64,000 nt of DNA. Source: Streptococcus himalayensis. GTDB taxonomy: Bacteria; Bacillota; Bacilli; Lactobacillales; Streptococcaceae. The position numbers and the translations under genes were made by a program. Location of the stretch: NCBI RefSeq assembly GCF_001708305.1, contig NZ_CP016953.1:8501-72500 (forward strand). The letters run 5' to 3'. The notes beneath the pieces are model-generated. The model was not told where the DNA came from, did not search any database, and worked only from the letters and a program-made list of their open reading frames with translations. This document shows, piece by piece, positions 1 through 60,793 of this stretch (its first letter is position 1; each line of letters opens with the position of its first letter).

Positions 1-3000
1 GTGAAGGTATTAGATACTAGGACATAACCCTTATCTGTATACTCTTTAATCTTATCGGCAGTTGTATACGGGATAAGATCACCAGATTTACCTGACTTGG
101 ACTCAACGGCAAGGTTTTTACCAGTTGTTTGATCAACGTAGGTAATCGTTGCCTTTTGGTCATCTGCCACATACGTAATGACCGTATTTTCACCTGGATC
201 TTTTGGCGTTGGTGGTGTATAGCCGCCTGCTGGATTCTTTGGATCCGCCGGAGTCAATGGTTGACCATCTGGATCTTGTGGGGTATATCCTGGGACATAC
301 GGAATCGTAACCGTTGGCTCACCTGGAACCGTTGGTTTCTCTGGTGTTGGATCTGGATATGGAAGCGGAGTTGGTTTTTCCTCACCTGGTTTGTTTGGTA
401 CCCAGCTTGCTAGTTTGCCATAGTAAACGGTGTGTTCAATATTTGAACTTGTTTCTGTTAAACCAGTAACTTCTTCAATCACCGCGTCGTCCGCCTTCAC
501 AAGGTAATGACCAGAAACTACTGGAGACGTTACAGCGTCAAACGTAGTATCGTTATCCTTAGCTGTCCAAGGAGTAGATTCAATCACTTCCCCTGTTACC
601 TTGTTCACGGTTACAGAACGAGTGAAGGTTACAGAGTCTGTCGCGTCTTTGGCAAGGGTATCTCCACTATCTTTTTCCTTATAGTGGATGGTTTGCGTAA
701 TGACTTTGTTCAAGCCATCTTGACCTGTCTCAGCTGGCCACTTAGGTCCTTCTGGGAAGCCAGGGTTGATTGGCTCACCTGGGGTCTTAGGAGCTGTCGG
801 TGGCACTTCTTCCGTACCTTGTTTAAGGGTAACGACGAAGTTTTGATCCACAGCTGAATCATTGTCGAATTTCTCTTTACCATCTGTGAAGGTATTAGAT
901 ACTAGGACATAACCCTTATCTGTATACTCTTTAATCTTATCGGCAGTTGTATACGGGATAAGATCACCAGATTTACCTGACTTGGACTCAACGGCAAGGT
1001 TTTTACCAGTTGTTTGATCAACGTAGGTAATCGTTGCCTTTTGGTCATCTGCCACATACGTAATGACCGTATTTTCACCTGGATCTTTTGGCGTTGGTGG
1101 TGTATAGCCGCCTGCTGGATTCTTTGGATCCGCCGGAGTCAATGGTTGACCATCTGGATCTTGTGGGGTATATCCTGGGACATACGGAATCGTAACCGTT
1201 GGCTCACCTGGAACCGTTGGTTTCTCTGGTGTTGGATCTGGATATGGAAGCGGAGTTGGTTTTTCCTCACCTGGTTTGTTTGGTACCCAGCTTGCTAGTT
1301 TGCCATAGTAAACGGTGTGTTCAATATTTGAACTTGTTTCTGTTAAACCAGTAACTTCTTCAATCACCGCGTCGTCCGCCTTCACAAGGTAATGACCAGA
1401 AACTACTGGAGACGTTACAGCGTCAAACGTAGTATCGTTATCCTTAGCTGTCCAAGGAGTAGATTCAATCACTTCCCCTGTTACCTTGTTCACGGTTACA
1501 GAACGAGTGAAGGTTACAGAGTCTGTCGCGTCTTTGGCAAGGGTATCTCCACTATCTTTTTCCTTATAGTGGATGGTTTGCGTAATGACTTTGTTCAAGC
1601 CATCTTGACCTGTCTCAGCTGGCCACTTAGGTCCTTCTGGGAAGCCAGGGTTAATTGGCTCACCTGGGGTCTTAGGAGCTGTCGGTGGCACTTCTTCCGT
1701 ACCTTGTTTAAGGGTAACGACGAAGTTTTGATCCGCAGCTGAATCATTGTCGAATTTCTCTTTACCATCCGTGAAGGTATTAGATACTAGGACATAACCC
1801 TTATCTGTATACTCTTTAATCTTATCGGCAGTTGTATACGGGATAGGATCACCAGATTTACCTGACTTGGACTCAACGGCAAGGTTTTTACCAGTTGTTT
1901 GATCAACGTAGGTAATTGTTGCCTTTTGGTCATCTGCCACATACGTAATGACCGTATTTTCACCTGGATCTTTTGGCGTTGGTGGCGTATAGCCTGCCTC
2001 TGGATTCTTTGGATCTGCCGGAGTCAATGGTTGACCATCTGGATCTTGTGGGGTATATCCTGGGACATACGGAATCGTAACCGTTGGCTCACCTGGAACC
2101 GTTGGATTCTCTGGTGTTGGATCTGGATATGGAAGCGGAGTTGGTTTTTCCTCACCTGGTTTGTTTGGTACCCAGCTTGCTAGTTTGCCATAGTAAACGG
2201 TGTGTTCAATATTTGAACTTGTTTCTGTTAAACCAGTGACTGCTTCAATCTCCGCGTCGTCCGCCTTCACAAGGTAATGACCAGAAACTACTGGAGACGT
2301 TACAGCGTCAAACGTAGTATCGTTATCCTTAGCTGTCCAAGGAGTAGATTCAATCACTTCCCCTGTTACCTTGTTCACGGTTACAGAACGAGTGAAGGTT
2401 ACAGAGTCTGTCGCGTCTTTGGCAAGGGTATCTCCACTATCTTTTTCCTTATAGTGGATGGTTTGCGTAATGACTTTGTTCAAGCCATCTTGACCTGTCT
2501 CAGCTGGCCACTTAGGTCCTTCTGGGAAGCCAGGGTTAATTGGCTCACCTGGGGTCTTAGGAGCTGTCGGTGGCACTTCTTCCGTACCTTGTTTAAGGGT
2601 AACGACGAAGTTTTGATCCGCAGCTGAATCATTGTCGAATTTCTCTTTACCATCCGTGAAGGTATTAGATACTAGGACATAACCCTTATCTGTATACTCT
2701 TTAATCTTATCGGCAGTTGTATACGGGATAGGATCACCAGATTTACCTGACTTGGACTCAACGGCAAGGTTTTTACCAGTTGTTTGATCAACGTAGGTAA
2801 TTGTTGCCTTTTGGTCATCTGCCACATACGTAATGACCGTATTTTCACCTGGATCTTTTGGCGTTGGTGGCGTATAGCCTGCCTCTGGATTCTTTGGATC
2901 TGCCGGAGTCAATGGTTGACCATCTGGATCTTGTGGGGTATATCCTGGGACATACGGAATCGTAACCGTTGGCTCACCTGGAACCGTTGGCTTCTCTGGT

Positions 3001-6000
3001 GTTGGATCTGGATATGGAAGCGGAGTTGGTTTTTCCTCACCTGGTTTGTTTGGTACCCAGCTTGCTAGTTTGCCATAGTAAACGGTGTGTTCAATATTTG
3101 AACTTGTTTCTGTTAAACCAGTGACTGCTTCAATCTCCGCGTCGTCCGCCTTCACAAGGTAATGACCAGAAACTACTGGAGACGTTACAGCGTCAAACGT
3201 AGTATCGTTATCCTTAGCTGTCCAAGGAGTAGATTCAATCACTTCCCCTGTTACCTTGTTCACGGTTACAGAACGAGTGAAGGTTACAGAGTCTGTCGCG
3301 TCTTTGGCAAGGGTATCTCCACTATCTTTTTCCTTATAGTGGATGGTTTGCGTAATGACTTTGTTCAAGCCATCTTGACCTGTCTCAGCTGGCCACTTAG
3401 GTCCTTCTGGATAGTCAGGGTTAATTGGCTTGGTTGGATCCTTAGGATCTGTCGGTGGTACCGTTACTTTGCCTGGTTTCAAGCGAACTTCGAAGTTTTG
3501 AGAAACAGTTGTTCCATCATCTACTGTATCGAAGGTCAAGCCATCTGCTGGGAAGTCGTTGCTTACAAGCTCATAGCCTTTCTTCTTATAGTCTTCAATC
3601 GTTGCTTGAGGACTGTAAGGGCTCTTCGCACCAGTCTTACCTGCTAGATCTTCATGGCTCAACTCAGTGTTTCCATTACCGTCTAGACCTGTATCGATGA
3701 AGGTTACTTTAGCTTTTTGATCACCAGCGTTGTAAGTAACTGTGACTTCACGATTTTTCGCGTCTGCCGTGATGTTTTCTTCTGCGGCAACAACGGCTTT
3801 GTCAGGAGTGTACCCTGCAATAGTTGGAGACGTTACAGCGTCAAACGTTGTGTCCTCATTGTCCGCTACCCAATCACCGTAAGTAACAGTTTTATCTACC
3901 AAGTCAACAGTCGCATTGCGCTTGAAGGTCAAGGTTTCTGTGACATCCTTCGCTGCTTCTCTACCATCTGCGTATTTGTAATGAATGGTACGAGTAACAG
4001 TTTTCACCAATTCTTTCTTATCAGTGACACCATTTGGCCATTCTGGGTTGTCAGATGGTGGAACTACCTGTGTACCATGTTTCAAGTGAACTTCAAATGT
4101 TTGTGAAGCACCTTTCTCATCATCAACTGCATCGAATACTACACCAGTTGCTGGATAGTTATCTGATACGAGAACATAACCTTGAGCAGTCAATTTATCA
4201 ATCGTTGGTTTTGTACGATAGTCACTTGTTTGATCTGTCTTACCTGTTAGATCTTCATGGCTCAACTCAGTGTTTCCTTTACCGTCTAGACCTGTATCGA
4301 TGAAGGTTACTTTAGCTTTTTGATCGTTAGCCTCATACGTGATTGGCGTATCTTTACCTGGATCTTTTGGCGTTGGTGGCGTATAGCCTGCCTCTGGATT
4401 CTTTGGATCTGCCGGAGTCAATGGTTGACCATCTGGATCTTGTGGGGTATATCCTGGGACATACGGAATCGTAACCGTTGGCTCACCTGGAACCGTTGGC
4501 TTCTCTGGTGTTGGATCTGGATATGGAAGCGGAGTTGGTTTTTCCTCACCTGGTTTGTTTGGTACCCAGCTTGCTAGTTTGCCATAGTAAACGGTGTGTT
4601 CAATATTTGAACTTGTTTCTGTTAAACCAGTGACTGCTTCAATCTCCGCGTCGTCCGCCTTCACAAGGTAATGACCAGAAACTACTGGAGACGTTACAGC
4701 GTCAAACGTAGTATCGTTATCCTTAGCTGTCCAAGGAGTAGATTCAATCACTTCCCCTGTTACCTTGTTCACGGTTACAGAACGAGTGAAGGTTACAGAG
4801 TCTGTCGCGTCTTTGGCAAGGGTATCTCCACTATCTTTTTCCTTATAGTGGATGGTTTGCGTAATGACTTTGTTCAAGCCATCTTGACCTGTCTCAGCTG
4901 GCCACTTAGGTCCTTCTGGATAGTCAGGGTTAATTGGCTTGGTTGGATCCTTAGGATCTGTCGGTGGTACCGTTACTTTGCCTGGTTTCAAGCGAACTTC
5001 GAAGTTTTGAGAAACAGTTGTTCCATCATCTACTGTATCGAAGGTCAAGCCATCTGCTGGGAAGTCGTTGCTTACAAGCTCATAGCCTTTCTTCTTATAG
5101 TCTTCAATCGTTGCTTGAGGACTGTAAGGGCTCTTCGCACCAGTCTTACCTGCTAGATCTTCATGGCTCAACTCAGTGTTTCCATTACCGTCTAGACCTG
5201 TATCGATGAAGGTTACTTTAGCTTTTTGATCACCAGCGTTGTAAGTAACTGTGACTTCACGATTTTTCGCGTCTGCCGTGATGTTTTCTTCTGCGGCAAC
5301 AACGGCTTTGTCAGGAGTGTACCCTGCAATAGTTGGAGACGTTACAGCGTCAAACGTTGTGTCCTCATTGTCCGCTACCCAATCACCGTAAGTAACAGTT
5401 TTATCTACCAAGTCAACAGTCGCATTGCGCTTGAAGGTCAAGGTTTCTGTGACATCCTTCGCTGCTTCTCTACCATCTGCGTATTTGTAATGAATGGTAC
5501 GAGTAACAGTTTTCACCAATTCTTTCTTATCAGTGACACCATTTGGCCATTCTGGGTTGTCAGATGGTGGAACTACCTGTGTACCATGTTTCAAGTGAAC
5601 TTCAAATGTTTGTGAAGCACCTTTCTCATCATCAACTGCATCGAATACTACACCAGTTGCTGGATAGTTATCTGATACGAGAACATAACCTTGAGCAGTC
5701 AATTTATCAATCGTTGGTTTTGTACGATAGTCACTTGTTTGATCTGTCTTACCTGTTAGATCTTCATGGCTCAACTCAGTGTTTCCTTTACCGTCTAGAC
5801 CTGTATCGATGAAGGTTACTTTAGCTTTTTGATCGTTAGCCTCATACGTGATTGGCGTATCTTTACCTGGATCTTTTGGCGTTGGTGGCGTATAGCCTGC
5901 CTCTGGATTCTTTGGATCTGCCGGAGTCAATGGTTGACCATCTGGATCTTGTGGGGTATATCCTGGGACATACGGAATCGTAACCGTTGGCTCACCTGGA

Positions 6001-9000
6001 ACCGTTGGTTTCTCTGGTGTTGGATCTGGATATGGAAGCGGAGTTGGTTTTTCCTCACCTGGTTTGTTTGGTACCCAGCTTGCTAGTTTGCCATAGTAAA
6101 CGGTGTGTTCAATATTTGAACTTGTTTCTGTTAAACCAGTAACTTCTTCAATCACCGCGTCGTCCGCCTTCACAAGGTAATGACCAGAAACTACTGGAGA
6201 CGTTACAGCGTCAAACGTAGTATCGTTATCCTTAGCTGTCCAAGGAGTAGATTCAATCACTTCCCCTGTTACCTTGTTCACGGTTACAGAACGAGTGAAG
6301 GTTACAGAGTCTGTCGCGTCTTTGGCAAGGGTATCTCCACTATCTTTTTCCTTATAGTGGATGGTTTGCGTAATGACTTTGTTCAAGCCATCTTGACCTG
6401 TCTCAGCTGGCCACTTAGGTCCTTCTGGGAAGCCAGGGTTGATTGGCTCACCTGGGGTCTTAGGAGCTGTCGGTGGCACTTCTTCCGTACCTTGTTTAAG
6501 GGTAACGACGAAGTTTTGATCCACAGCTGAATCATTGTCGAATTTCTCTTTACCATCTGTGAAGGTATTAGATACTAGGACATAACCCTTATCTGTATAC
6601 TCTTTAATCTTATCGGCAGTTGTATACGGGATAAGATCACCAGATTTACCTGACTTGGACTCAACGGCAAGGTTTTTACCAGTTGTTTGATCAACGTAGG
6701 TAATCGTTGCCTTTTGGTCATCTGCCACATACGTAATGACCGTATTTTCACCTGGATCTTTTGGCGTTGGTGGTGTATAGCCGCCTGCTGGATTCTTTGG
6801 ATCCGCCGGAGTCAATGGTTGACCATCTGGATCTTGTGGGGTATATCCTGGGACATACGGAATCGTAACCGTTGGCTCACCTGGAACCGTTGGTTTCTCT
6901 GGTGTTGGATCTGGATATGGAAGCGGAGTTGGTTTTTCCTCACCTGGTTTGTTTGGTACCCAGCTTGCTAGTTTGCCATAGTAAACGGTGTGTTCAATAT
7001 TTGAACTTGTTTCTGTTAAACCAGTAACTTCTTCAATCACCGCGTCGTCCGCCTTCACAAGGTAATGACCAGAAACTACTGGAGACGTTACAGCGTCAAA
7101 CGTAGTATCGTTATCCTTAGCTGTCCAAGGAGTAGATTCAATCACTTCCCCTGTTACCTTGTTCACGGTTACAGAACGAGTGAAGGTTACAGAGTCTGTC
7201 GCGTCTTTGGCAAGGGTATCTCCACTATCTTTTTCCTTATAGTGGATGGTTTGCGTAATGACTTTGTTCAAGCCATCTTGACCTGTCTCAGCTGGCCACT
7301 TAGGTCCTTCTGGGAAGCCAGGGTTAATTGGCTCACCTGGGGTCTTAGGAGCTGTCGGTGGCACTTCTTCCGTACCTTGTTTAAGGGTAACGACGAAGTT
7401 TTGATCCGCAGCTGAATCATTGTCGAATTTCTCTTTACCATCCGTGAAGGTATTAGATACTAGGACATAACCCTTATCTGTATACTCTTTAATCTTATCG
7501 GCAGTTGTATACGGGATAGGATCACCAGATTTACCTGACTTGGACTCAACGGCAAGGTTTTTACCAGTTGTTTGATCAACGTAGGTAATTGTTGCCTTTT
7601 GGTCATCTGCCACATACGTAATGACCGTATTTTCACCTGGATCTTTTGGCGTTGGTGGCGTATAGCCTGCCTCTGGATTCTTTGGATCTGCCGGAGTCAA
7701 TGGTTGACCATCTGGATCTTGTGGGGTATATCCTGGGACATACGGAATCGTAACCGTTGGCTCACCTGGAACCGTTGGCTTCTCTGGTGTTGGATCTGGA
7801 TATGGAAGCGGAGTTGGTTTTTCCTCACCTGGTTTGTTTGGTACCCAGCTTGCTAGTTTGCCATAGTAAACGGTGTGTTCAATATTTGAACTTGTTTCTG
7901 TTAAACCAGTGACTGCTTCAATCTCCGCGTCGTCCGCCTTCACAAGGTAATGACCAGAAACTACTGGAGACGTTACAGCGTCAAACGTAGTATCGTTATC
8001 CTTAGCTGTCCAAGGAGTAGATTCAATCACTTCCCCTGTTACCTTGTTCACGGTTACAGAACGAGTGAAGGTTACAGAGTCTGTCGCGTCTTTGGCAAGG
8101 GTATCTCCACTATCTTTTTCCTTATAGTGGATGGTTTGCGTAATGACTTTGTTCAAGCCATCTTGACCTGTCTCAGCTGGCCACTTAGGTCCTTCTGGAT
8201 AGTCAGGGTTAATTGGCTTGGTTGGATCCTTAGGATCTGTCGGTGGTACCGTTACTTTGCCTGGTTTCAAGCGAACTTCGAAGTTTTGAGAAACAGTTGT
8301 TCCATCATCTACTGTATCGAAGGTCAAGCCATCTGCTGGGAAGTCGTTGCTTACAAGCTCATAGCCTTTCTTCTTATAGTCTTCAATCGTTGCTTGAGGA
8401 CTGTAAGGGCTCTTCGCACCAGTCTTACCTGCTAGATCTTCATGGCTCAACTCAGTGTTTCCATTACCGTCTAGACCTGTATCGATGAAGGTTACTTTAG
8501 CTTTTTGATCACCAGCGTTGTAAGTAACTGTGACTTCACGATTTTTCGCGTCTGCCGTGATGTTTTCTTCTGCGGCAACAACGGCTTTGTCAGGAGTGTA
8601 CCCTGCAATAGTTGGAGACGTTACAGCGTCAAACGTTGTGTCCTCATTGTCCGCTACCCAATCACCGTAAGTAACAGTTTTATCTACCAAGTCAACAGTC
8701 GCATTGCGCTTGAAGGTCAAGGTTTCTGTGACATCCTTCGCTGCTTCTCTACCATCTGCGTATTTGTAATGAATGGTACGAGTAACAGTTTTCACCAATT
8801 CTTTCTTATCAGTGACACCATTTGGCCATTCTGGGTTGTCAGATGGTGGAACTACCTGTGTACCATGTTTCAAGTGAACTTCAAATGTTTGTGAAGCACC
8901 TTTCTCATCATCAACTGCATCGAATACTACACCAGTTGCTGGATAGTTATCTGATACGAGAACATAACCTTGAGCAGTCAATTTATCAATCGTTGGTTTT

Positions 9001-12000
9001 GTACGATAGTCACTTGTTTGATCTGTCTTACCTGTTAGATCTTCATGGCTCAACTCAGTGTTTCCTTTACCGTCTAGACCTGTATCGATGAAGGTTACTT
9101 TAGCTTTTTGATCGTTAGCCTCATACGTGATTGGCGTATCTTTACCTGGATCTTTTGGCGTTGGTGGCGTATAGCCTGCCTCTGGATTCTTTGGATCTGC
9201 CGGAGTCAATGGTTGACCATCTGGATCTTGTGGGGTATATCCTGGGACATACGGAATCGTAACCGTTGGCTCACCTGGAACCGTTGGCTTCTCTGGTGTT
9301 GGATCTGGATATGGAAGCGGAGTTGGTTTTTCCTCACCTGGTTTGTTTGGTACCCAGCTTGCTAGTTTGCCATAGTAAACGGTGTGTTCAATATTTGAAC
9401 TTGTTTCTGTTAAACCAGTGACTGCTTCAATCTCCGCGTCGTCCGCCTTCACAAGGTAATGACCAGAAACTACTGGAGACGTTACAGCGTCAAACGTAGT
9501 ATCGTTATCCTTAGCTGTCCAAGGAGTAGATTCAATCACTTCCCCTGTTACCTTGTTCACGGTTACAGAACGAGTGAAGGTTACAGAGTCTGTCGCGTCT
9601 TTGGCAAGGGTATCTCCACTATCTTTTTCCTTATAGTGGATGGTTTGCGTAATGACTTTGTTCAAGCCATCTTGACCTGTCTCAGCTGGCCACTTAGGTC
9701 CTTCTGGATAGTCAGGGTTAATTGGCTTGGTTGGATCCTTAGGATCTGTCGGTGGTACCGTTACTTTGCCTGGTTTCAAGCGAACTTCGAAGTTTTGAGA
9801 AACAGTTGTTCCATCATCTACTGTATCGAAGGTCAAGCCATCTGCTGGGAAGTCGTTGCTTACAAGCTCATAGCCTTTCTTCTTATAGTCTTCAATCGTT
9901 GCTTGAGGACTGTAAGGGCTCTTCGCACCAGTCTTACCTGCTAGATCTTCATGGCTCAACTCAGTGTTTCCATTACCGTCTAGACCTGTATCGATGAAGG
10001 TTACTTTAGCTTTTTGATCACCAGCGTTGTAAGTAACTGTGACTTCACGATTTTTCGCGTCTGCCGTGATGTTTTCTTCTGCGGCAACAACGGCTTTGTC
10101 AGGAGTGTACCCTGCAATAGTTGGAGACGTTACAGCGTCAAACGTTGTGTCCTCATTGTCCGCTACCCAATCACCGTAAGTAACAGTTTTATCTACCAAG
10201 TCAACAGTCGCATTGCGCTTGAAGGTCAAGGTTTCTGTGACATCCTTCGCTGCTTCTCTACCATCTGCGTATTTGTAATGAATGGTACGAGTAACAGTTT
10301 TCACCAATTCTTTCTTATCAGTGACACCATTTGGCCATTCTGGGTTGTCAGATGGTGGAACTACCTGTGTACCATGTTTCAAGTGAACTTCAAATGTTTG
10401 TGAAGCACCTTTCTCATCATCAACTGCATCGAATACTACACCAGTTGCTGGATAGTTATCTGATACGAGAACATAACCTTGAGCAGTCAATTTATCAATC
10501 GTTGGTTTTGTACGATAGTCACTTGTTTGATCTGTCTTACCTGTTAGATCTTCATGGCTCAACTCAGTGTTTCCTTTACCGTCTAGACCTGTATCGATGA
10601 AGGTTACTTTAGCTTTTTGATCGTTAGCCTCATACGTGATTGGCGTATCTTTACCTGGATCTTTTGGCGTTGGTGGCGTATAGCCTGCCTCTGGATTCTT
10701 TGGATCTGCCGGAGTCAATGGTTGACCATCTGGATCTTGTGGGGTATATCCTGGGACATACGGAATCGTAACCGTTGGCTCACCTGGAACCGTTGGCTTC
10801 TCTGGTGTTGGATCTGGATATGGAAGCGGAGTTGGTTTTTCCTCACCTGGTTTGTTTGGTACCCAGCTTGCTAGTTTGCCATAGTAAACGGTGTGTTCAA
10901 TATTTGAACTTGTTTCTGTTAAACCAGTGACTGCTTCAATCTCCGCGTCGTCCGCCTTCACAAGGTAATGACCAGAAACTACTGGAGACGTTACAGCGTC
11001 AAACGTAGTATCGTTATCCTTAGCTGTCCAAGGAGTAGATTCAATCACTTCCCCTGTTACCTTGTTCACGGTTACAGAACGAGTGAAGGTTACAGAGTCT
11101 GTCGCGTCTTTGGCAAGGGTATCTCCACTATCTTTTTCCTTATAGTGGATGGTTTGCGTAATGACTTTGTTCAAGCCATCTTGACCTGTCTCAGCTGGCC
11201 ACTTAGGTCCTTCTGGATAGTCAGGGTTAATTGGCTTGGTTGGATCCTTAGGATCTGTCGGTGGTACCGTTACTTTGCCTGGTTTCAAGCGAACTTCGAA
11301 GTTTTGAGAAACAGTTGTTCCATCATCTACTGTATCGAAGGTCAAGCCATCTGCTGGGAAGTCGTTGCTTACAAGCTCATAGCCTTTCTTCTTATAGTCT
11401 TCAATCGTTGCTTGAGGACTGTAAGGGCTCTTCGCACCAGTCTTACCTGCTAGATCTTCATGGCTCAACTCAGTGTTTCCATTACCGTCTAGACCTGTAT
11501 CGATGAAGGTTACTTTAGCTTTTTGATCACCAGCGTTGTAAGTAACTGTGACTTCACGATTTTTCGCGTCTGCCGTGATGTTTTCTTCTGCGGCAACAAC
11601 GGCTTTGTCAGGAGTGTACCCTGCAATAGTTGGAGACGTTACAGCGTCAAACGTTGTGTCCTCATTGTCCGCTACCCAATCACCGTAAGTAACAGTTTTA
11701 TCTACCAAGTCAACAGTCGCATTGCGCTTGAAGGTCAAGGTTTCTGTGACATCCTTCGCTGCTTCTCTACCATCTGCGTATTTGTAATGAATGGTACGAG
11801 TAACAGTTTTCACCAATTCTTTCTTATCAGTGACACCATTTGGCCATTCTGGGTTGTCAGATGGTGGAACTACCTGTGTACCATGTTTCAAGTGAACTTC
11901 AAATGTTTGTGAAGCACCTTTCTCATCATCAACTGCATCGAATACTACACCAGTTGCTGGATAGTTATCTGATACGAGAACATAACCTTGAGCAGTCAAT

Positions 12001-12110
12001 TTATCAATCGTTGGTTTTGTACGATAGTCACTTGTTTGATCTGTCTTACCAGGCACATTTTTTACTTCGATGTTCTTTTTAGCGGTATCATCGATGAAGG
12101 TTACGGTCGC
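1..12110 (-). repeat. Near-identical tandem repeats coding for mucin-binding domain pairs
   Basis: Equivalent positions recur at these spacings. A 885-bp unit (295 aa: one B1+B2 pair plus linker) is seen between 129, 1014, 1899 and 2784, and between 6687 and 7572. A 1509-bp unit (503 aa: two pairs, one of 603 bp without linker and one of 906 bp with linker) is seen between 3717 and 5226, and between 8505, 10014 and 11523. A larger period of 4788 bp (two 1509 plus two 885 units) relates 3717 to 8505, 4320 to 9108 and 5226 to 10014. Copies differ by only a few bases. Units to the right of about 12110 are diverged single copies. Confidence 0.95.
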
Positions 12111-15100
12111 TTTTTGATTGTTAGCCTCATACGTGATTGGCGTATCTTGACTTGGATCATTTGGAATTGCTGGAGGGTTGAAGCCTTGAGTTGGATCTCC
12201 AGGAACTTTTGGAGTTAAAGCGCCACCTGGACCTTGTGGGGTATATCCAGGGATATTTGGAATAATTCCTTCTTCTGGCGTTCCAGGTTTTGTCGGATCC
12301 GTTGGATGATTTGGATATTGGATAGGATCTTTAGGTTCCTTTCCAGCCGGCACCTTTGGAACCCAGCTTCCTAGTTTCGTATAGTAAACGGTTTCCTCTA
12401 TATCCTGACTATTTTCTGTCAAGTTCGTCTTTTCAGGAACTTCGCCCTTATCCGCTAGATAGCCGGCAAGTTTCGGACTCGTAATAGCGTCAAACGTAGT
12501 ATCGCCATCCTTAGCTGTCCAGTCTGTATACGTTATCTTCTTGGTAACAAGGTTAACTTTAGCAGAACGTTCAAATGTGACTTTATCTGACCGATCTGGA
12601 CTTGCTTGTCTATTGTCCGCTTTAAACTTGTAGTGAACAACCCTGTTAATATCTTTAACCAACTGTTGTTTATCTGCTTCTTTAACACCTTCTGGCCACT
12701 CTGGGGTTTCAGAAGGTGGAACAGTCACAACTTTTTGACGAAGCTTAACCACATAATCTTGAGAGATGGTAGTATCATCATTTATACTATCATAATAGGT
12801 AATCCCCTTAGGAAATCCATCCGATACAAGTTCATAACCTTGGCTCTCGTAATTTGAAATCTCATCGGTAGTTGTATACTTGATAGGATCACCAGATTTA
12901 CCTTTTACCTCATCTGTTTTTAAGGGAGTAGTTCCCTGACCATCTTCTCCTACATTAATATAGGTGATACGAGCCTTTTGTTCTTTCTTATAAACGACAA
13001 CTGTCTCATAATTATTGGTAAAACCAGTATTTGAGTAATTATTGAAATAGCTATCAGAAATGATTGTATTCCCATTTTCATCTTGGGTTGTGACTGTATC
13101 TGTAATGACCGCATTGGTCAATACAGCCGTGACCGTCTCTGCATCTGCTCCAGTTTTAATATTTGGGACATTTGAGGTAAGAATACTTGGTGAGTACCCT
13201 TTAAGGTCTTTAACTTTATGGTCCTTATCGAAAGCAGATTTAGGAGAAGCAACACTATCATAAGTATTCGTTGTATTGTCTGTACCAGTCACCAGCCAGC
13301 CAGTATCGGCAATCCCATCTCCATTAACATCTTTGACGATATAGCGAGCTTTCTTATAGGCTGCAAGGAAATCATCTCCATTATCAACGATACTTCCTTC
13401 GAGCGTATTAAGGAATCGTGCAAGGTCAATCCCAGCTTCAATCTTTCTTGTCCAGTCTGATTTTTGAACAACAACCAATGGTTTCCCATCTTCCCCTAAA
13501 ACAGGTGTTCCATCTTCATAGACATAGCGGATTGTATTGGTATGTTGTGCAACTGGAGCGATAACTGTACCATTTGAAATCCAAATGTTTTGACGGTTAC
13601 TGTTAACCGGATCAATTCCGTAGTCCGGATCGTTTACTAATACACTTCCTGCAGAAGAAAGGGTAGGATCAGAAAGGGCATTCGATGGTTGGATTTCAGG
13701 TCTAGCACCTGGTAGGAATCCAGCAACTGGTAGTGCACCACTTTGAATATTGGTCCAAACAGAACTTACTTTAGTTTTTTGGTCCTTATTGTCCAAATTC
13801 AAAGAGTAAACTGTATAAGTCCCATTCGTCACACCTTCTGGTCCGTTGAACTCAATTTTAGCGCCATCGGCTTTAGTTTTAGCGCTCACATAAAGAATAT
13901 TCCCATGTGGAATTTTTTCCGGATTATTTCCTTGAGGGATTTCAGGAGGAAGGTGTCCCTCAATAGCTCCAGCAGAAATCCCTGATGATTTCGTATAACG
14001 AAGAAGAGAGACGTAGGCTGGATTATTAAACTGGAAGGTCACATCCTTAGAGCCACCCAACGGAACTGAAATCAACTCTGCATAGTAGTTGGTATTATCG
14101 TCCCGGATGTCAACAATGGAACCTTCATTAGCTTTAAATAGCGGTACTGGCTTTCTTTCTACTTTTCGTGAGTCTAGAGAGATAACATCATCCCAGTCAT
14201 TATCTCCACGATTGTCCATCTGAACACGGAAGGTTGCAAACGCATCAACAGTCAATGTTCCGTCTTCATCTACACCGATATAGTTATATCCATCAAACGC
14301 TCCAGATGGCCCAGGAAATTCTCTACTTTTTCCTTTCCCATCAGAATGGAAGGTATTAACTGAGTTTTTTCCAAAGAAGATATGAGAGTCGTCTCCAAGC
14401 TCAAGCGCTACACCACGACCCTGATTTTCAAAGCGAACTTTAGATTTTTCTCCAGATGTAAATCTTGCATTGTGGCCAGTGATGATTCCATCACGTCCTG
14501 TAAAGTTAAAGGTAGCTCCCTCTCCAATAGAGATGATTGCTGAGGAATCTTTAACTTTACTTATACCCCTAGCTCCATAGCCGCCAAAACGATCAGCTGG
14601 TGTTATAGCGTCATCAGGACGTTTTACACCGATAGAAATCCCTTGACCAATACTTGTATTTAGATTCAAAGTAGAATTTTTACCAGTGATTACTTGACCA
14701 TCTGTAGGCATGAAAATACCAGCATTATGGTAGCGGATAGGATCTTTAGCTCCTGTGGTATTCATATTGATGGTCAAGGACGCAGCATCTTTGACTTCAA
14801 CCTTGCTACCGTTTGGAAGATTGATCCCATCACCGCTAGGAGAACGACTAATAGTCAAGGACGCACCTTCAGAAACCGTCACTGAAGAAGCATCATGAAT
14901 ATTTGCTTCACGACGTTCACGGTTATGGACCGTTTCTGCGGCGGCTGTAGTCGCAGTTCCTACATTTTTTTGGACATATTGGACTTGACCTGTTTTAGTT
15001 GTGTATGATTCACTGACAGTTGACGTAGTATTTCCTTTAATAACAACTGCTGTGTCACCTCCACCTCCATAAAGAGAGGAACCGTTAGCCGTTACATTGT

Positions 15101-16208
15101 TAAAGGTCACCGTATTTTGACCCGATGTATGTGTTAGGTTCAAAGCACCTTTTGAGTTAGCGGTATTTAGCGCTACATCTTTGAAGGTAATATCCCAAGA
15201 ATCTGAGCCGTTGGGCGTCAAGGTAAAGGAACGCAAATCTAAGGTGTGATTTCCACCATCAATCAACAAACCATGACCTGTTGCATTAAGTGTTAATGTG
15301 CGGTCAACACTGGCAGGTCTATTCCGAATGGAACCAGTATCCACTCCATTAGAATTCCCATTAGTAACATTTGCATCAGCAAGAACTCCTGGGCGAACTC
15401 CTGTAGAAGCGTTATCTGGAGCAACAATATCTCCTGCTAATTTAATCGTTCCTACATTTCCATCTGCAAATGCTTGTAAGAATTCTGCCCAGCTAGAGAC
15501 AGTTGCTTCTGTCTGAGCACGTTCAGCAGCAAAAAAGCGTGCTCCTGAAACCTCTGTATTTCGAGTTGCTAATTTATTTTCTAAGACAGGTGTAGCAGTA
15601 CTAGTTTCATCAAGAGATGATTTTGTCTCCAGATTAAGAGTAGTTGCTGAAGCGTCTATAGTCACACTACGATTAGCTGGTTCAGATTTTTCTTCAACCT
15701 TTTCTTTGGACGTTACTTCAGCTGTCTCTGTTTTTTTCTCAGCTACCGGCTTTTGGTTATTTTCAGCTTTTTCTTTACTAGAAGAGGTTGTTTTTTCTAC
15801 TGATTTACGAACCTCAGCTGTATTTTCTGTTTTTTTCTTTTCATCAACAATAGGCGTTTCAGATTTTTCTTGAACTTTTTCTTCAACCTTTTCTTCAACT
15901 ACCTCCTCTGTTGATAATTCAGGAACCGTTTCTTCAACATCAGCAGATTGCGTCGTTGATTGTACTGTTTCTGTTTTTGAATCTTTTGACACCTCATCCT
16001 CTGTCGTACTCGAAGAGGTTGTCAAAGAAATCTGATCAGATTCTACACTAGTGCTTGAATCTGCAGAAACTGGTGCTTGTGCACCCCAAAAAAGACTGGC
16101 ACCGATAATGGCAGAAGCGACACCTTGATTAAATTTTCGAATTGAAAACGTAAAGCGCTTATCTGCACACTGTTCGTTGCGAACTTTTCGGTTGTTTTTT
16201 CCAACCAT
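1..16208 (-). CDS. Giant mucin-binding-type repeat surface adhesin (5' part; runs out of the window)
   Basis: One frame stays open from ATG 16208 to base 1: 5402 codons with no stop. The start has a strong AGGAGG ribosome site 9-10 nt upstream. Residues 1-50 form a YSIRK-type signal (core FSIRK, then GVASAIIGASLF) with likely cleavage after VSA. Residues about 50-230 are E/K/S/T/V-rich stalk. About 234-700 reads as a pectate-lyase-like adhesive beta-helix (SWAEFLQAF start, many short N/G turns). From about residue 1070 onward come 16 complete pairs plus one partial pair of Mub-type domains: a B1-like module (QKA-T/V-TFID ... GYELVS ... NFEV-L) followed by a B2-like module (TxTIHYK ... W ... 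TTFDAVTSP). Most pairs end in a proline-rich linker of about 80 residues. Such proteins bind mucin or glycans. The C-terminus and a sortase LPXTG signal are expected beyond the left edge but are not seen. Adhesin role is inferred from domains. Confidence 0.93.
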   Translation of the reverse strand, partial: MVGKNNRKVRNEQCADKRFTFSIRKFNQGVASAIIGASLFWGAQAPVSADSSTSVESDQISLTTSSSTTEDEVSKDSKTETVQSTTQSADVEETVPELSTEEVVEEKVEEKVQEKSETPIVDEKKKTENTAEVRKSVEKTTSSSKEKAENNQKPVAEKKTETAEVTSKEKVEEKSEPANRSVTIDASATTLNLETKSSLDETSTATPVLENKLATRNTEVSGARFFAAERAQTEATVSSWAEFLQAFADGNVGTIKLAGDIVAPDNASTGVRPGVLADANVTNGNSNGVDTGSIRNRPASVDRTLTLNATGHGLLIDGGNHTLDLRSFTLTPNGSDSWDITFKDVALNTANSKGALNLTHTSGQNTVTFNNVTANGSSLYGGGGDTAVVIKGNTTSTVSESYTTKTGQVQYVQKNVGTATTAAAETVHNRERREANIHDASSVTVSEGASLTISRSPSGDGINLPNGSKVEVKDAASLTINMNTTGAKDPIRYHNAGIFMPTDGQVITGKNSTLNLNTSIGQGISIGVKRPDDAITPADRFGGYGARGISKVKDSSAIISIGEGATFNFTGRDGIITGHNARFTSGEKSKVRFENQGRGVALELGDDSHIFFGKNSVNTFHSDGKGKSREFPGPSGAFDGYNYIGVDEDGTLTVDAFATFRVQMDNRGDNDWDDVISLDSRKVERKPVPLFKANEGSIVDIRDDNTNYYAELISVPLGGSKDVTFQFNNPAYVSLLRYTKSSGISAGAIEGHLPPEIPQGNNPEKIPHGNILYVSAKTKADGAKIEFNGPEGVTNGTYTVYSLNLDNKDQKTKVSSVWTNIQSGALPVAGFLPGARPEIQPSNALSDPTLSSAGSVLVNDPDYGIDPVNSNRQNIWISNGTVIAPVAQHTNTIRYVYEDGTPVLGEDGKPLVVVQKSDWTRKIEAGIDLARFLNTLEGSIVDNGDDFLAAYKKARYIVKDVNGDGIADTGWLVTGTDNTTNTYDSVASPKSAFDKDHKVKDLKGYSPSILTSNVPNIKTGADAETVTAVLTNAVITDTVTTQDENGNTIISDSYFNNYSNTGFTNNYETVVVYKKEQKARITYINVGEDGQGTTPLKTDEVKGKSGDPIKYTTTDEISNYESQGYELVSDGFPKGITYYDSINDDTTISQDYVVKLRQKVVTVPPSETPEWPEGVKEADKQQLVKDINRVVHYKFKADNRQASPDRSDKVTFERSAKVNLVTKKITYTDWTAKDGDTTFDAITSPKLAGYLADKGEVPEKTNLTENSQDIEETVYYTKLGSWVPKVPAGKEPKDPIQYPNHPTDPTKPGTPEEGIIPNIPGYTPQGPGGALTPKVPGDPTQGFNPPAIPNDPSQDTPITYEANNQKATVTFIDDTAKKNIEVKNVPGKTDQTSDYRTKPTIDKLTAQGYVLVSDNYPATGVVFDAVDDEKGASQTFEVHLKHGTQVVPPSDNPEWPNGVTDKKELVKTVTRTIHYKYADGREAAKDVTETLTFKRNATVDLVDKTVTYGDWVADNEDTTFDAVTSPTIAGYTPDKAVVAAEENITADAKNREVTVTYNAGDQKAKVTFIDTGLDGNGNTELSHEDLAGKTGAKSPYSPQATIEDYKKKGYELVSNDFPADGLTFDTVDDGTTVSQNFEVRLKPGKVTVPPTDPKDPTKPINPDYPEGPKWPAETGQDGLNKVITQTIHYKEKDSGDTLAKDATDSVTFTRSVTVNKVTGEVIESTPWTAKDNDTTFDAVTSPVVSGHYLVKADDAEIEAVTGLTETSSNIEHTVYYGKLASWVPNKPGEEKPTPLPYPDPTPEKPTVPGEPTVTIPYVPGYTPQDPDGQPLTPADPKNPEAGYTPPTPKDPGKDTPITYEANDQKAKVTFIDTGLDGKGNTELSHEDLTGKTDQTSDYRTKPTIDKLTAQGYVLVSDNYPATGVVFDAVDDEKGASQTFEVHLKHGTQVVPPSDNPEWPNGVTDKKELVKTVTRTIHYKYADGREAAKDVTETLTFKRNATVDLVDKTVTYGDWVADNEDTTFDAVTSPTIAGYTPDKAVVAAEENITADAKNREVTVTYNAGDQKAKVTFIDTGLDGNGNTELSHEDLAGKTGAKSPYSPQATIEDYKKKGYELVSNDFPADGLTFDTVDDGTTVSQNFEVRLKPGKVTVPPTDPKDPTKPINPDYPEGPKWPAETGQDGLNKVITQTIHYKEKDSGDTLAKDATDSVTFTRSVTVNKVTGEVIESTPWTAKDNDTTFDAVTSPVVSGHYLVKADDAEIEAVTGLTETSSNIEHTVYYGKLASWVPNKPGEEKPTPLPYPDPTPEKPTVPGEPTVTIPYVPGYTPQDPDGQPLTPADPKNPEAGYTPPTPKDPGKDTPITYEANDQKAKVTFIDTGLDGKGNTELSHEDLTGKTDQTSDYRTKPTIDKLTAQGYVLVSDNYPATGVVFDAVDDEKGASQTFEVHLKHGTQVVPPSDNPEWPNGVTDKKELVKTVTRTIHYKYADGREAAKDVTETLTFKRNATVDLVDKTVTYGDWVADNEDTTFDAVTSPTIAGYTPDKAVVAAEENITADAKNREVTVTYNAGDQKAKVTFIDTGLDGNGNTELSHEDLAGKTGAKSPYSPQATIEDYKKKGYELVSNDFPADGLTFDTVDDGTTVSQNFEVRLKPGKVTVPPTDPKDPTKPINPDYPEGPKWPAETGQDGLNKVITQTIHYKEKDSGDTLAKDATDSVTFTRSVTVNKVTGEVIESTPWTAKDNDTTFDAVTSPVVSGHYLVKADDAEIEAVTGLTETSSNIEHTVYYGKLASWVPNKPGEEKPTPLPYPDPTPEKPTVPGEPTVTIPYVPGYTPQDPDGQPLTPADPKNPEAGYTPPTPKDPGENTVITYVADDQKATITYVDQTTGKNLAVESKSGKSGDPIPYTTADKIKEYTDKGYVLVSNTFTDGKEKFDNDSAADQNFVVTLKQGTEEVPPTAPKTPGEPINPGFPEGPKWPAETGQDGLNKVITQTIHYKEKDSGDTLAKDATDSVTFTRSVTVNKVTGEVIESTPWTAKDNDTTFDAVTSPVVSGHYLVKADDAVIEEVTGLTETSSNIEHTVYYGKLASWVPNKPGEEKPTPLPYPDPTPEKPTVPGEPTVTIPYVPGYTPQDPDGQPLTPADPKNPAGGYTPPTPKDPGENTVITYVADDQKATITYVDQTTGKNLAVESKSGKSGDLIPYTTADKIKEYTDKGYVLVSNTFTDGKEKFDNDSAVDQNFVVTLKQGTEEVPPTAPKTPGEPINPGFPEGPKWPAETGQDGLNKVITQTIHYKEKDSGDTLAKDATDSVTFTRSVTVNKVTGEVIESTPWTAKDNDTTFDAVTSPVVSGHYLVKADDAVIEEVTGLTETSSNIEHTVYYGKLASWVPNKPGEEKPTPLPYPDPTPEKPTVPGEPTVTIPYVPGYTPQDPDGQPLTPADPKNPEAGYTPPTPKDPGKDTPITYEANDQKAKVTFIDTGLDGKGNTELSHEDLTGKTDQTSDYRTKPTIDKLTAQGYVLVSDNYPATGVVFDAVDDEKGASQTFEVHLKHGTQVVPPSDNPEWPNGVTDKKELVKTVTRTIHYKYADGREAAKDVTETLTFKRNATVDLVDKTVTYGDWVADNEDTTFDAVTSPTIAGYTPDKAVVAAEENITADAKNREVTVTYNAGDQKAKVTFIDTGLDGNGNTELSHEDLAGKTGAKSPYSPQATIEDYKKKGYELVSNDFPADGLTFDTVDDGTTVSQNFEVRLKPGKVTVPPTDPKDPTKPINPDYPEGPKWPAETGQDGLNKVITQTIHYKEKDSGDTLAKDATDSVTFTRSVTVNKVTGEVIESTPWTAKDNDTTFDAVTSPVVSGHYLVKADDAEIEAVTGLTETSSNIEHTVYYGKLASWVPNKPGEEKPTPLPYPDPTPEKPTVPGEPTVTIPYVPGYTPQDPDGQPLTPADPKNPEAGYTPPTPKDPGKDTPITYEANDQKAKVTFIDTGLDGKGNTELSHEDLTGKTDQTSDYRTKPTIDKLTAQGYVLVSDNYPATGVVFDAVDDEKGASQTFEVHLKHGTQVVPPSDNPEWPNGVTDKKELVKTVTRTIHYKYADGREAAKDVTETLTFKRNATVDLVDKTVTYGDWVADNEDTTFDAVTSPTIAGYTPDKAVVAAEENITADAKNREVTVTYNAGDQKAKVTFIDTGLDGNGNTELSHEDLAGKTGAKSPYSPQATIEDYKKKGYELVSNDFPADGLTFDTVDDGTTVSQNFEVRLKPGKVTVPPTDPKDPTKPINPDYPEGPKWPAETGQDGLNKVITQTIHYKEKDSGDTLAKDATDSVTFTRSVTVNKVTGEVIESTPWTAKDNDTTFDAVTSPVVSGHYLVKADDAEIEAVTGLTETSSNIEHTVYYGKLASWVPNKPGEEKPTPLPYPDPTPEKPTVPGEPTVTIPYVPGYTPQDPDGQPLTPADPKNPEAGYTPPTPKDPGENTVITYVADDQKATITYVDQTTGKNLAVESKSGKSGDPIPYTTADKIKEYTDKGYVLVSNTFTDGKEKFDNDSAADQNFVVTLKQGTEEVPPTAPKTPGEPINPGFPEGPKWPAETGQDGLNKVITQTIHYKEKDSGDTLAKDATDSVTFTRSVTVNKVTGEVIESTPWTAKDNDTTFDAVTSPVVSGHYLVKADDAEIEAVTGLTETSSNIEHTVYYGKLASWVPNKPGEEKPTPLPYPDPTPENPTVPGEPTVTIPYVPGYTPQDPDGQPLTPADPKNPEAGYTPPTPKDPGENTVITYVADDQKATITYVDQTTGKNLAVESKSGKSGDPIPYTTADKIKEYTDKGYVLVSNTFTDGKEKFDNDSAADQNFVVTLKQGTEEVPPTAPKTPGEPINPGFPEGPKWPAETGQDGLNKVITQTIHYKEKDSGDTLAKDATDSVTFTRSVTVNKVTGEVIESTPWTAKDNDTTFDAVTSPVVSGHYLVKADDAVIEEVTGLTETSSNIEHTVYYGKLASWVPNKPGEEKPTPLPYPDPTPEKPTVPGEPTVTIPYVPGYTPQDPDGQPLTPADPKNPAGGYTPPTPKDPGENTVITYVADDQKATITYVDQTTGKNLAVESKSGKSGDLIPYTTADKIKEYTDKGYVLVSNTFTDGKEKFDNDSAVDQNFVVTLKQGTEEVPPTAPKTPGEPINPGFPEGPKWPAETGQDGLNKVITQTIHYKEKDSGDTLAKDATDSVTFTRSVTVNKVTGEVIESTPWTAKDNDTTFDAVTSPVVSGHYLVKADDAVIEEVTGLTETSSNIEHTVYYGKLASWVPNKPGEEKPTPLPYPDPTPEKPTVPGEPTVTIPYVPGYTPQDPDGQPLTPADPKNPAGGYTPPTPKDPGENTVITYVADDQKATITYVDQTTGKNLAVESKSGKSGDLIPYTTADKIKEYTDKGYVLVSNTF

Positions 16209-16243
16209 AAATATATTTCCTCCTAGGCTTGCGCCGTCATATA

Positions 16244-16269
16244 CATTAGCAACAAAAGCATTGCTAATG
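16244..16269 (-). promoter_or_regulatory. Hairpin in the adhesin 5' leader
   Basis: A perfect 9-bp inverted repeat (CATTAGCAA / TTGCTAATG) with an 8-nt loop lies about 36-61 nt upstream of the adhesin ATG, inside the predicted 156-nt untranslated leader. No T-run follows, so it is not a terminator. A role in mRNA stability or translation is possible but not shown. Confidence 0.5.
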
Positions 16270-16370
16270 CACTATCTTCTATTTTTTCCAGTGTCCATTC
16301 CTCTGATATTGAACAGAGTATGAAAAGACATGGAAATATTTTCTGGGTATTATGAAAACACCCATTCTAT

Positions 16371-16398
16371 ATGATACCCCCCCCCTCGGTTTTGTCAA
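16371..16398 (-). promoter_or_regulatory. Adhesin promoter with G9 homopolymer in the spacer
   Basis: On the minus strand a perfect -35 box TTGACA (16398-16393) is followed by a 16-nt spacer consisting of AAACCGA plus nine G (16385-16377), then a -10 box TATCAT (16376-16371, 5/6 match). The predicted start of transcription is near 16364. A spacer of 16 is one short of the optimum, so one added G gives 17. This is the geometry of phase-variable promoters controlled by slipped-strand mispairing. Confidence 0.8.
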
Positions 16399-16436
16399 GT
16401 ACTTTTAATATATTATTTTTATTTTTTTAGTTTAAA

Positions 16437-16465
16437 TTTAGACAAAGTTTAATTTATTGTCTAAA
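16437..16465. promoter_or_regulatory. Inverted repeat upstream of the adhesin promoter
   Basis: TTTAGACAA (16437-16445) and TTGTCTAAA (16457-16465) form a perfect 9-bp inverted repeat with an 11-nt centre, 39-67 bp upstream of the adhesin -35 box. It lies in AT-rich DNA with no gene. The position suits an activator or repressor site, but no regulator is identified. Confidence 0.45.
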
Positions 16466-16983
16466 AAATGAGGTTTTAGCTATTTCAATATAGCATAATG
16501 TGCTCCTGCAAAGAATCTACTCTTTATCCATGCTTACCCGTGCTCATACAAATAAGCAACAAAATCACTTGAATTCTAAATAATGGCTTGAAAATATAGA
16601 GATACACCGCATGTTTGTTACCAGTAAGCTTTGACCTATGCTCTCTACCAGTACTCTATAAAGCTCAAAATTCGACTAGGTAACACCTCCTGATAGAACT
16701 GGAGTTCAACAAGATGAGTTAACGATGTCAGATTTTGATTTTGGTTGACTATAATACTCCTGTAATTTCAAAAATATAAATTTTATATATGCATGTTTAT
16801 GTTGTCACAAAGTGAAATAAACCAAGTATGTCAAACAGGATGCTTTTTTAGCAGATGAAAAGTACAGTCATAAAAAATAAGTAGTTTACGTCCGAACCAT
16901 CTAAGAAAGTCGCACAAATGCTAACTTTGATTTCAGATGAGTCTAAGGTGAATAGCTCGCCCTCTATCTATGTTTTTTGACAA
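16466..16983. other. Intergenic region between the adhesin promoter and murJ; degraded dispersed repeat
   Basis: I see no credible gene here. Bases 16713-16759 carry a partial, diverged copy, in the opposite orientation, of the dispersed repeat found at 20327 and 34476 (shared core GAGTTAACGATGTCAGAT). The rest is AT-rich with no other recognisable element. Confidence 0.5.
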
Positions 16984-17030
16984 ACAAAAAAACTGAAACA
17001 GACAAGGCTAATAGCTGTCTGTCTCAATCT
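16984..17030 (-). terminator. Terminator of murJ
   Basis: A hairpin with arms around 16993-17004 (CTGAAACAGACA) and 17016-17026 (TGTCTGTCTCA), with T-rich tails on both sides, directly follows the murJ stop on the minus strand. Confidence 0.8.
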
Positions 17031-17033
17031 TTT

Positions 17034-18662
17034 TTATGGAATATGCAATTTTTGGCGGAGACTTTCTGCTCTAGCACCTAAAAATTTATCAAGCAAGCGT
17101 GTCAAAAGTCCCAGGTAAAAATAGGTTACAACTCCAATTCCACCAACCAGAGTAAGATAAATCAAATTAAGCAAGCGTCCTTGCGAATGAAAGACAAATC
17201 CTAATAGGAATTGGGCTAGATAAACAGCCACTGCCATCATTCCAGTCAACATCAAAGCTAACAAACTTCGTCTCAAGATAATGTTTGAGCGCAATTTGGT
17301 CACGCGCTGAATATGTCGATACATCAATACAATCGGAACGAGCAAGCCTACAGTCGTTGAAAGCAGAGGCCCATACGCTTGAAACAGAAAAATCATCGGA
17401 GCTTGCAAGGCCACCTTTAGCAAGAATCCATAGACAAAATAGAGCACGGCTTTCCGATTTTGAAACAAGGATTGAATCATCGGCGAAAGCACCATATACC
17501 CTCCCAATAGAAGGGTCTGGGAAACAGCAAAGATAAATAAACCTAAAGCCAAGGAATCAGCTTCTCCATAAAAAACTGTGTATAGTGGTTTTGCCAAGAG
17601 AATCGATCCGACCGTAGCTGGAATTAAAAAGGCCATGAGCATACTCAAATTATCTTGTATCAATTTGACGACAGCTGGTCGATCTCCTTTAATATAGTTG
17701 GCTGTTAGAAGGGGGATTCCCACCCCTCCAATAGAAGTTGCCACAGCAATCAAAATCATCGTAATTTTATTAGGGTTGGCTGAAAAATAACTAAACATAA
17801 TCACTAATTCTGATTTACTATAATCGGTCAAATCCTGCATAAATTTAATAAAAGTCATTTGATCAATGATTTGGAATAACTGAATAGCTGAGCCTGTGAT
17901 AATAAAAGGAATGGCTTCCCGAAGGGTATCCCATAACAAGGCTTTACTATCAATCTTTTCTTTCTTACTTGACTTTTTCAAAATAGCAGCCAACATATCC
18001 GCTTGCCATAAAAAGTAAAGCAAGACAAGCATACTCGCAATCATTCCGATAAAAGCTGCAAAGGTCGATTGGGTCACAGCTTCCACATAATTTTTCGAAC
18101 CCAAATTCATGATGAGATAAGCTGTTACCAACATCCAAATCACTCGCACCACTTGTTCGGCAATCTGGCTGACCGCAAAGGGTTTTAAATCATTGAAACC
18201 TTGAAAAAATCCACGGATAACACTCATCACAGGAAATACAAGAACTGCCCAAGATAAGCTCCTCATGACAGGAATGAGATCTTTTCCAACACCAGACATT
18301 TCTGCAAATAAGGGAGAACCGAGATACATCCCTATCGCAAAAACAAGGCCTAAGATGAGCATCAAGTTGATAAATTCTCTCACTAGGATAAAACTATGCT
18401 CTCGCTCTTCTTTGGCATTGTATTTTGCCACTTGCTTTGCAATAGCAACTGGAATCCCTGCTGTGGAAACCAGAAGAAACCAAGCATAGATGTTATATCC
18501 CATCGTAAACAAGCCGTTTGCCTCAGCAGCATGAGGCTGCATCCAGATATACCAAGGGATAATATAAATCGCTCCCAGTAAACGACTGATAAAATTACTA
18601 ATTGTTAACCAAGCCGTTCCACGGAGCATCTGCTCCTGCTGACTTGTTTCTTTTTCTTTCAT
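17034..18662 (-). CDS. murJ: Polysaccharide biosynthesis/lipid II flippase, YtgP-MurJ type (MATE/MOP superfamily)
   Basis: This is a 542-residue multi-span membrane protein with about 14 predicted helices, starting MKEKETSQQEQMLRGTAW. The first helix follows immediately (TISNFISRLLGAIYIIPW), as in YtgP proteins of the oligosaccharidyl-lipid exporter superfamily. The Streptococcus pyogenes YtgP protein complements loss of MurJ in E. coli, so the likely role is flipping lipid II across the membrane for peptidoglycan synthesis. An AGAGG ribosome site precedes the ATG. It lies back to back with murE, another peptidoglycan gene, with about 85 bp between them. Length is normal and I see no damage. 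Assignment to MurJ activity rests on family knowledge. A generic polysaccharide transporter is the alternative. Confidence 0.88.
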   Translation of the reverse strand: MKEKETSQQEQMLRGTAWLTISNFISRLLGAIYIIPWYIWMQPHAAEANGLFTMGYNIYAWFLLVSTAGIPVAIAKQVAKYNAKEEREHSFILVREFINLMLILGLVFAIGMYLGSPLFAEMSGVGKDLIPVMRSLSWAVLVFPVMSVIRGFFQGFNDLKPFAVSQIAEQVVRVIWMLVTAYLIMNLGSKNYVEAVTQSTFAAFIGMIASMLVLLYFLWQADMLAAILKKSSKKEKIDSKALLWDTLREAIPFIITGSAIQLFQIIDQMTFIKFMQDLTDYSKSELVIMFSYFSANPNKITMILIAVATSIGGVGIPLLTANYIKGDRPAVVKLIQDNLSMLMAFLIPATVGSILLAKPLYTVFYGEADSLALGLFIFAVSQTLLLGGYMVLSPMIQSLFQNRKAVLYFVYGFLLKVALQAPMIFLFQAYGPLLSTTVGLLVPIVLMYRHIQRVTKLRSNIILRRSLLALMLTGMMAVAVYLAQFLLGFVFHSQGRLLNLIYLTLVGGIGVVTYFYLGLLTRLLDKFLGARAESLRQKLHIP

Positions 18663-59530: not shown

Positions 59531-59606
59531 AAAATCATAACCATAAAAATCTTTACTTTATCATTTTATACTTAACAAAAATCAAATTCTGATGTATAAT
59601 AGTCAT

Positions 59607-60654: not shown

Positions 60655-60793
60655 GTATTAGAATAAAAAGGCTCTATAATATCTGTAGTGGGTAAATCCA
60701 CTGTGGAGATTATGGAACCTTTTTCAGTGTAGAAAAAAAGTCCCATATGACCTATAATGAAAAGCGACAAAACCATCATTTAGAAAGACTCAT

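Follow-up and report, generated by a model that had tools for sequence, protein, structure and literature searches.

A poly-G promoter spacer ahead of a giant adhesin gene in Streptococcus himalayensis and a candidate genus-wide set of phase-variable surface-gene promoters

The 64-kb stretch of Streptococcus himalayensis DNA analysed here, referred to throughout as the window, carries on its minus strand the greater part of a giant adhesin gene, whose features are collected in Table 1. An earlier note on this DNA had put the adhesin at more than 5400 residues and described it as a streptococcal mucin-binding-type surface protein, and both statements hold: followed beyond the window edge to the gene end at C1:5773, the protein reaches a full length of 6,311 aa and combines a YSIRK signal, a Pectate_lyase_5 adhesive domain, long MucBP_2/Muc_B2 repeat arrays and an LPNTG motif near its end. 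By these sequence features the adhesin is a YSIRK/LPXTG wall-anchored protein of the MucBP type, with mucin binding as a putative function. A deep protein search with residues 1-900 returned 32 proteins at 33-40% identity, the named ones among them being lactobacillar mucin-binding proteins, and a scan of the contigs of named genomes gave one relative, in Limosilactobacillus balticus (27%). Within the genus, the adhesin N-terminus, whole or in part, was matched in 32 of 283 other genomes, and over its adhesive domain the adhesin (window 3-16208, L001) resembles streptococcal proteins at up to 62% identity. A mosaic or horizontal origin of the adhesin is possible.

Upstream of this gene, the minus strand reads TTGACA-AAACCGAGGGGGGGGG-TATCAT from 16398 to 16371, so that a perfect -35 box and a -10 box enclose 16 bases, nine of them an uninterrupted run of G, all exactly as the earlier note had read it. 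The same pair of boxes at a spacing of 16 has one exact match in the whole window, and the site, with 11 of 12 matches, has the top promoter-like score in 16100-17100; a promoter-box scan of the interval between the tract and the ATG gave no further minus-strand promoter-like site scoring at least 9. The promoter lies 162 bp upstream of the gene, with an AGGAGG 5' of the ATG at 16208. RNA folding predicts hairpins in the leader at about 16344-16364 and 16241-16272, and the 186-nt stretch 16375-16190 has a folding z of -5.1, while an Rfam scan gave no match at the leader. Since a terminator-like hairpin stands behind the upstream gene (17034-18662), the adhesin gene is apparently a separate transcription unit. 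Two further observations concern the surrounding DNA. A repeat-like stretch at 16640-16760, by eye akin to one near another G tract of the genome (L022), is presumably reminiscent of the small pneumococcal RUP repeats, and at 59592-63479 ORFs that we take to be transposase-like, two of which start with nearly identical protein sequence, are accompanied by two Srn266 RNA matches.

Table 1. Features of the giant adhesin locus, in window positions
Feature	Position	Strand	Basis or remark
Giant adhesin gene, in-window part	3..16208	minus	ORF; whole gene G000:C1:5773-24708
-35 box TTGACA	16393..16398	minus	exact sequence match
G9 tract, last nine spacer bases, abutting the -10 box	16377..16385	minus	sequence
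-10 box TATCAT	16371..16376	minus	exact sequence match
Predicted 5' leader	16209..16364	minus	start at about 16364 inferred
Ribosome-binding site AGGAGG	16219..16224	minus	read from sequence
Terminator-like hairpin and T-run	16987..17034	minus	behind upstream gene 17034-18662; RNA fold

The G9 run is the only one in the 64 kb, where dinucleotide shuffles expect 0.14 and produce at least one in 9 of 100 shuffles; per se it is only mildly unusual for a stretch of this length. Its significance lies in its location between two recognisable promoter boxes ahead of a surface-protein gene, and in a genome-wide and genus-wide pattern that exceeds chance. Both patterns go beyond the earlier note and come into view only with the genome: S. 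himalayensis has ten such tracts, and the genus a whole set to which this one belongs. The 2,275,471-bp genome holds ten G-runs of at least 9 (lengths 9, 10, 11, 10, 10, 9, 10, 9, 11 and 18); runs of 7 number five, and runs of exactly 8 are absent. For runs of 7, of 8 and of at least 9, a first-order model derived from the window expects about 72, 16 and 4.7, respectively. Mid-length G-runs are thus depleted and long ones retained, and the ten long runs against 4.7 expected are a modest excess taken alone.

In a 3-kb stretch examined around each, none of the ten tracts falls in a main ORF, and each is no more than 600 bp from the start of an ORF. YSIRK-type genes follow seven of them, in one case with a C-run on the coding strand, and six of the 15 PF04650 genes of the genome have a tract of at least nine G upstream. 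The remaining three precede a glycosyltransferase-like gene with a YSIRK gene behind it, a sugar-transferase-like gene and an MFS-type transporter gene, names that we assume from recognising the N-terminal sequences. Two of these tracts, L007 (G000:C1:427512-427522) and L024 (1850358-1850368), are G11 runs whose targets are the sugar-transferase-like gene and the glycosyltransferase-like gene with the YSIRK gene next to it, making glycan variation possible at these sites.

Of 284 genomes of the genus scanned for the pattern TTGA-N4-13-G8-N0-6-TANNNT, 67 contain it, S. himalayensis among them, and 6 contain its reversed control, with one match each; the poly-C counterpart occurred in 4 of 147 genomes, with 3 for its own reversed control. 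When the order was sampled, the pattern was present in 21 of 71 genomes belonging to the genus versus 13 of 324 others, and a stricter form with TTGACA was present in 7 of 258 genomes from elsewhere in the phylum. Among the matches listed, with alternative -10 readings merged, 130 sites came from 65 of the 67 genomes; 129 were located in the loci retrieved (G220:C13 was left out), and removal of five palindromic-element sites gave 124 curated sites from 63 genomes. The five removed sites (L054, L074, L117, L118 and L136) share the element TTGAA(C/T)GTTC-G8-CGTAC(A/G)TT, one of them with G10. In another family of the order (G125, G132, G180, G187, G193 and G500), G8-9 tracts of nearly constant length recur within elements that apparently form a separate class; several of these elements read TTGACAAAAT, an A-rich part, ATG8 and TAAACT.

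The genes downstream of the 124 curated sites among the matches listed comprise 39 of YSIRK type (variants such as FTIKK included), 2 with KxYKxGKxW, 49 with another signal or membrane segment and 33 others, with no gene at one site. With several ORFs inside 700 bp, a YSIRK-type one was given preference, which biases the surface-protein count upward, and the label 'other signal or membrane segment' follows a crude hydrophobicity rule that by itself marks 7 of 33 window genes; read with these limits, most targets look exported (90 of the 124 sites among the matches listed). Among 84 non-redundant target proteins, Pfam assigned YSIRK_signal to 26, SpaA to 9, Big_8 to 6, pilin domains to 2 and choline-binding domains to 2. 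The NCBIfam model pneumo_PspA matched seven targets, three of which, checked singly, were partial and under the model cut-off; one CpsA lay over its cut-off and one Cps4B-like protein slightly under. The PspA-like genes (L070, L079-L081, L145-L147 and L193) have G8-G10 between TTGACA and TATACT, and the length of this tract is variable where the flanks are near-identical.

Variability of tract length was assessed for the whole class from pairs of promoters with flanks of about 200 bp, at identity thresholds of at least 99% and at least 95%; the pairs are non-independent and nearly all compare different species. At the stricter threshold, 9 of 13 pairs have tracts of unequal length, and 2,600 bp of flank contain 0 gaps; at the looser one the tracts are unequal in 26 of 38 pairs, and 7,600 bp of flank contain 24 gaps. 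Grouped at flanks of at least 95%, 12 of 13 clusters of close relatives are polymorphic in tract length, and control A/T runs of at least 7 in those flanks are of unequal length in 2 of 21 comparisons. In one example, the 200 bp flanks are identical and the tracts are G8 and G10. For the promoter class, tract length as read from the assemblies is far more variable than the flanks, which shows a fast turnover of the tract and does not amount to switching in culture. A separate observation comes from L109 and L110 (G240:C1:1881575 and 1881825), where near-identical promoters about 250 bp apart, ahead of the same YSIRK gene, have G10 and G16.

These comparisons bear on a reading in which the tract is a static part of the promoter spacer, with length changes so rare or of so little effect that no real switch exists. 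What speaks for such a static spacer is the adhesin locus, seen in one genome and with a single tract length, and the adhesin family: 11 relatives (L195-L205, from the 32 genomes matched) gave 0 of 11 with a G- or C-run of at least 6 within 500 bp upstream, and one of the 13 near-identical promoter clusters is not polymorphic. The other 12 are polymorphic alongside stable flanks and A/T runs, which argues the other way, and we regard a static spacer as unlikely, though it is the best placed of the alternatives. The poly-G tract appears, from these relatives, not to be a conserved trait of the adhesin family, which counts against a family-wide switch. Furthermore, the adhesin promoter and leader had no ortholog among 195 other genomes searched in a sample of one genome per species; 16 other genomes matched the query over 21-62 bp, and the sole long match was the window itself. 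The G-run design is thus common to the genus and, with 11 relatives compared, found within the adhesin family only at the present locus.

A second alternative ascribes the action of the tract to DNA structure or to a regulator that binds it and not to the -35/-10 spacing, and the ten tracts of S. himalayensis lend it some weight. Four are flanked by -35-like and -10-like boxes, and five (L004, L007, L014, L019 and L024) have no clear spacer position: in L004, L007, L014 and L024 a promoter-like site begins about 50 bp beyond the tract start, and in L019 the nearest best promoter-like site is weak. L028 (G000:C1:2173205-2173222), the longest G-run of the genome, reads A16-G18-TATAAT with no clear -35 box, close upstream of the MFS-type transporter gene. 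Because tracts lie outside clear spacers, spacing cannot account for all ten, and DNA structure or a regulator is likely a second mechanism for tracts upstream of the promoter; a regulator-based effect has a precedent in the proposal for the R28 T-tract (PMC7098570). Against structure or a regulator as the general explanation stand the 124 curated sites among the matches listed, whose spacers range over 12-24 with 17-19 in 79 and 16-20 in 105, and whose tracts of 8-18 bases abut the -10 box in 78, as well as the adhesin locus, where the boxes border the tract exactly. We consider this explanation improbable, a shade more so than the static spacer. The remaining alternative, that the assemblies give wrong tract lengths and the variability is sequencing error, draws on the error-proneness of homopolymers and on lengths known here from assemblies alone, and is very improbable given that the tracts of near-identical promoters differ by as many as 6 bases, whether the genome is a draft or a single contig, and that A/T runs in the same flanks are mostly stable; the existence and location of the G9 tract itself are undoubted in any case.

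We therefore return to the reading in which spacing matters, and consider it probable that the main, sigma-A type promoter of the adhesin gene uses the G9 tract as its spacer and that the tract acts as a stochastic switch or rheostat, this promoter belonging with other G-run promoters, in the same genome and across the genus, found mainly ahead of surface-protein genes. Replication slippage would gain or lose Gs in the tract, and a change in their number would alter both the distance and the helical phase between the -35 and -10 boxes; the altered spacing would in turn change transcription of the giant wall-anchored mucin-binding-type protein. At 16 bp, the adhesin spacer is on the short side of the genus class. 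A G at -14 is an extended -10 contact in promoters; it is present in 114 of the 124 curated sites among the matches listed, and a C precedes the tract in 90. The strand bias may reflect this contact, as a G-run on the non-template strand would always supply a G at -14. The earlier note had proposed a phase-variable promoter: its architecture is borne out at the adhesin locus, and length variability is borne out at the level of the promoter class, from which we infer switching at the adhesin locus itself. The interpretation as a phase switch is accordingly plausible, and at class level it appears well supported.

The genus-wide set is a larger find than the adhesin locus. We lean, by a small margin of confidence, towards a set of phase-variable promoters across the genus built to one design, in which a non-template G-run, mostly abutting the -10 box, would provide the extended -10 G whatever its length and slippage would shift the distance to the -35 box, yielding graded random expression of the surface coat, with the adhesin as one of at least four in-spacer switches in its genome. 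This suggests that streptococci may randomly switch parts of their coat. If so, the switched coats would include YSIRK adhesins, pilin-like and PspA-like proteins, accessory-Sec-type glycoproteins and some capsule genes, and random coat variation would be widespread in the genus, given a design shared by 67 of 284 genomes, placed mostly before exported proteins and extending to PspA-like and capsule genes. Such variation would matter for colonisation, for typing and for which antigens are chosen for vaccines.

Among Gram-negative bacteria of mucosal surfaces, promoters switched by slippage are well known. For streptococci, a search of the open literature by title and the start of the abstract, with most subscription papers outside its scope, gave among the papers listed no description of a poly-G spacer promoter, which is weak evidence; as part of the same slightly favoured reading, the streptococcal set would be so far undescribed in the open literature. 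A 2025 review names mga and phasevarions for streptococci in its available part (PMC11868660), and two other papers leave streptococci unmentioned (PMC8808543, PMC2831843). The streptococcal slippage cases found, as far as the accessible parts of these sources describe them, appear few and different. In Streptococcus pyogenes, the length of an intergenic T-tract at R28/Spy1337 tracks transcript levels of an LPXTG surface protein (PMC7098570); like the adhesin locus, this is a streptococcal intergenic homopolymer with a surface protein, but the tract is T between divergent genes, with a proposed regulator-binding effect, and not a G spacer. Through strand slippage, the C8 tract of S. pyogenes mga likewise switches a streptococcal surface protein reversibly, but it acts on a reading frame, inside a regulator gene (PMC10330708). 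Repeat-controlled attenuation of a pilus is described for S. gallolyticus (PMC3894217, PMC7911514).

Outside the genus, Gardnerella has G/C tracts of at least 8 that for the most part precede ORFs, many of these ORFs having surface-protein motifs, and its colonies showed tracts of 9 versus 10 bp by Sanger sequencing (PMC11287997); this organism belongs to the Actinobacteria, and the available part of that report does not describe the tracts as -35/-10 spacers. In Bordetella pertussis, the length of the promoter C-stretch influences transcription of fim2, fim3 and fimX (PMC1891110), again a C/G homopolymer in surface-adhesin promoters, with the difference that the C-stretch belongs to a fimbrial promoter element that includes a fim box. 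The earlier note had also named nadA of Neisseria as an analogue, wrongly: there too an adhesin is under repeat control, but the repeat is distal to the promoter and changes the spacing of the NadR operator, whereas the adhesin tract lies between the -35 and -10 boxes (PMC2791445). The closer match is with porA, opc and fetA of Neisseria meningitidis, in which, as at the adhesin locus, a homopolymer lies between the -35 and -10 boxes ahead of a surface-protein gene; the Neisseria tracts are unstable, with a presumed effect on the binding of the sigma factor (PMC2791445). Those genes encode Gram-negative outer-membrane proteins, while the adhesin is a streptococcal wall-anchored protein whose promoter is part of a genus-wide set; by architecture and target, the adhesin promoter would be of the porA/opc/fetA kind.
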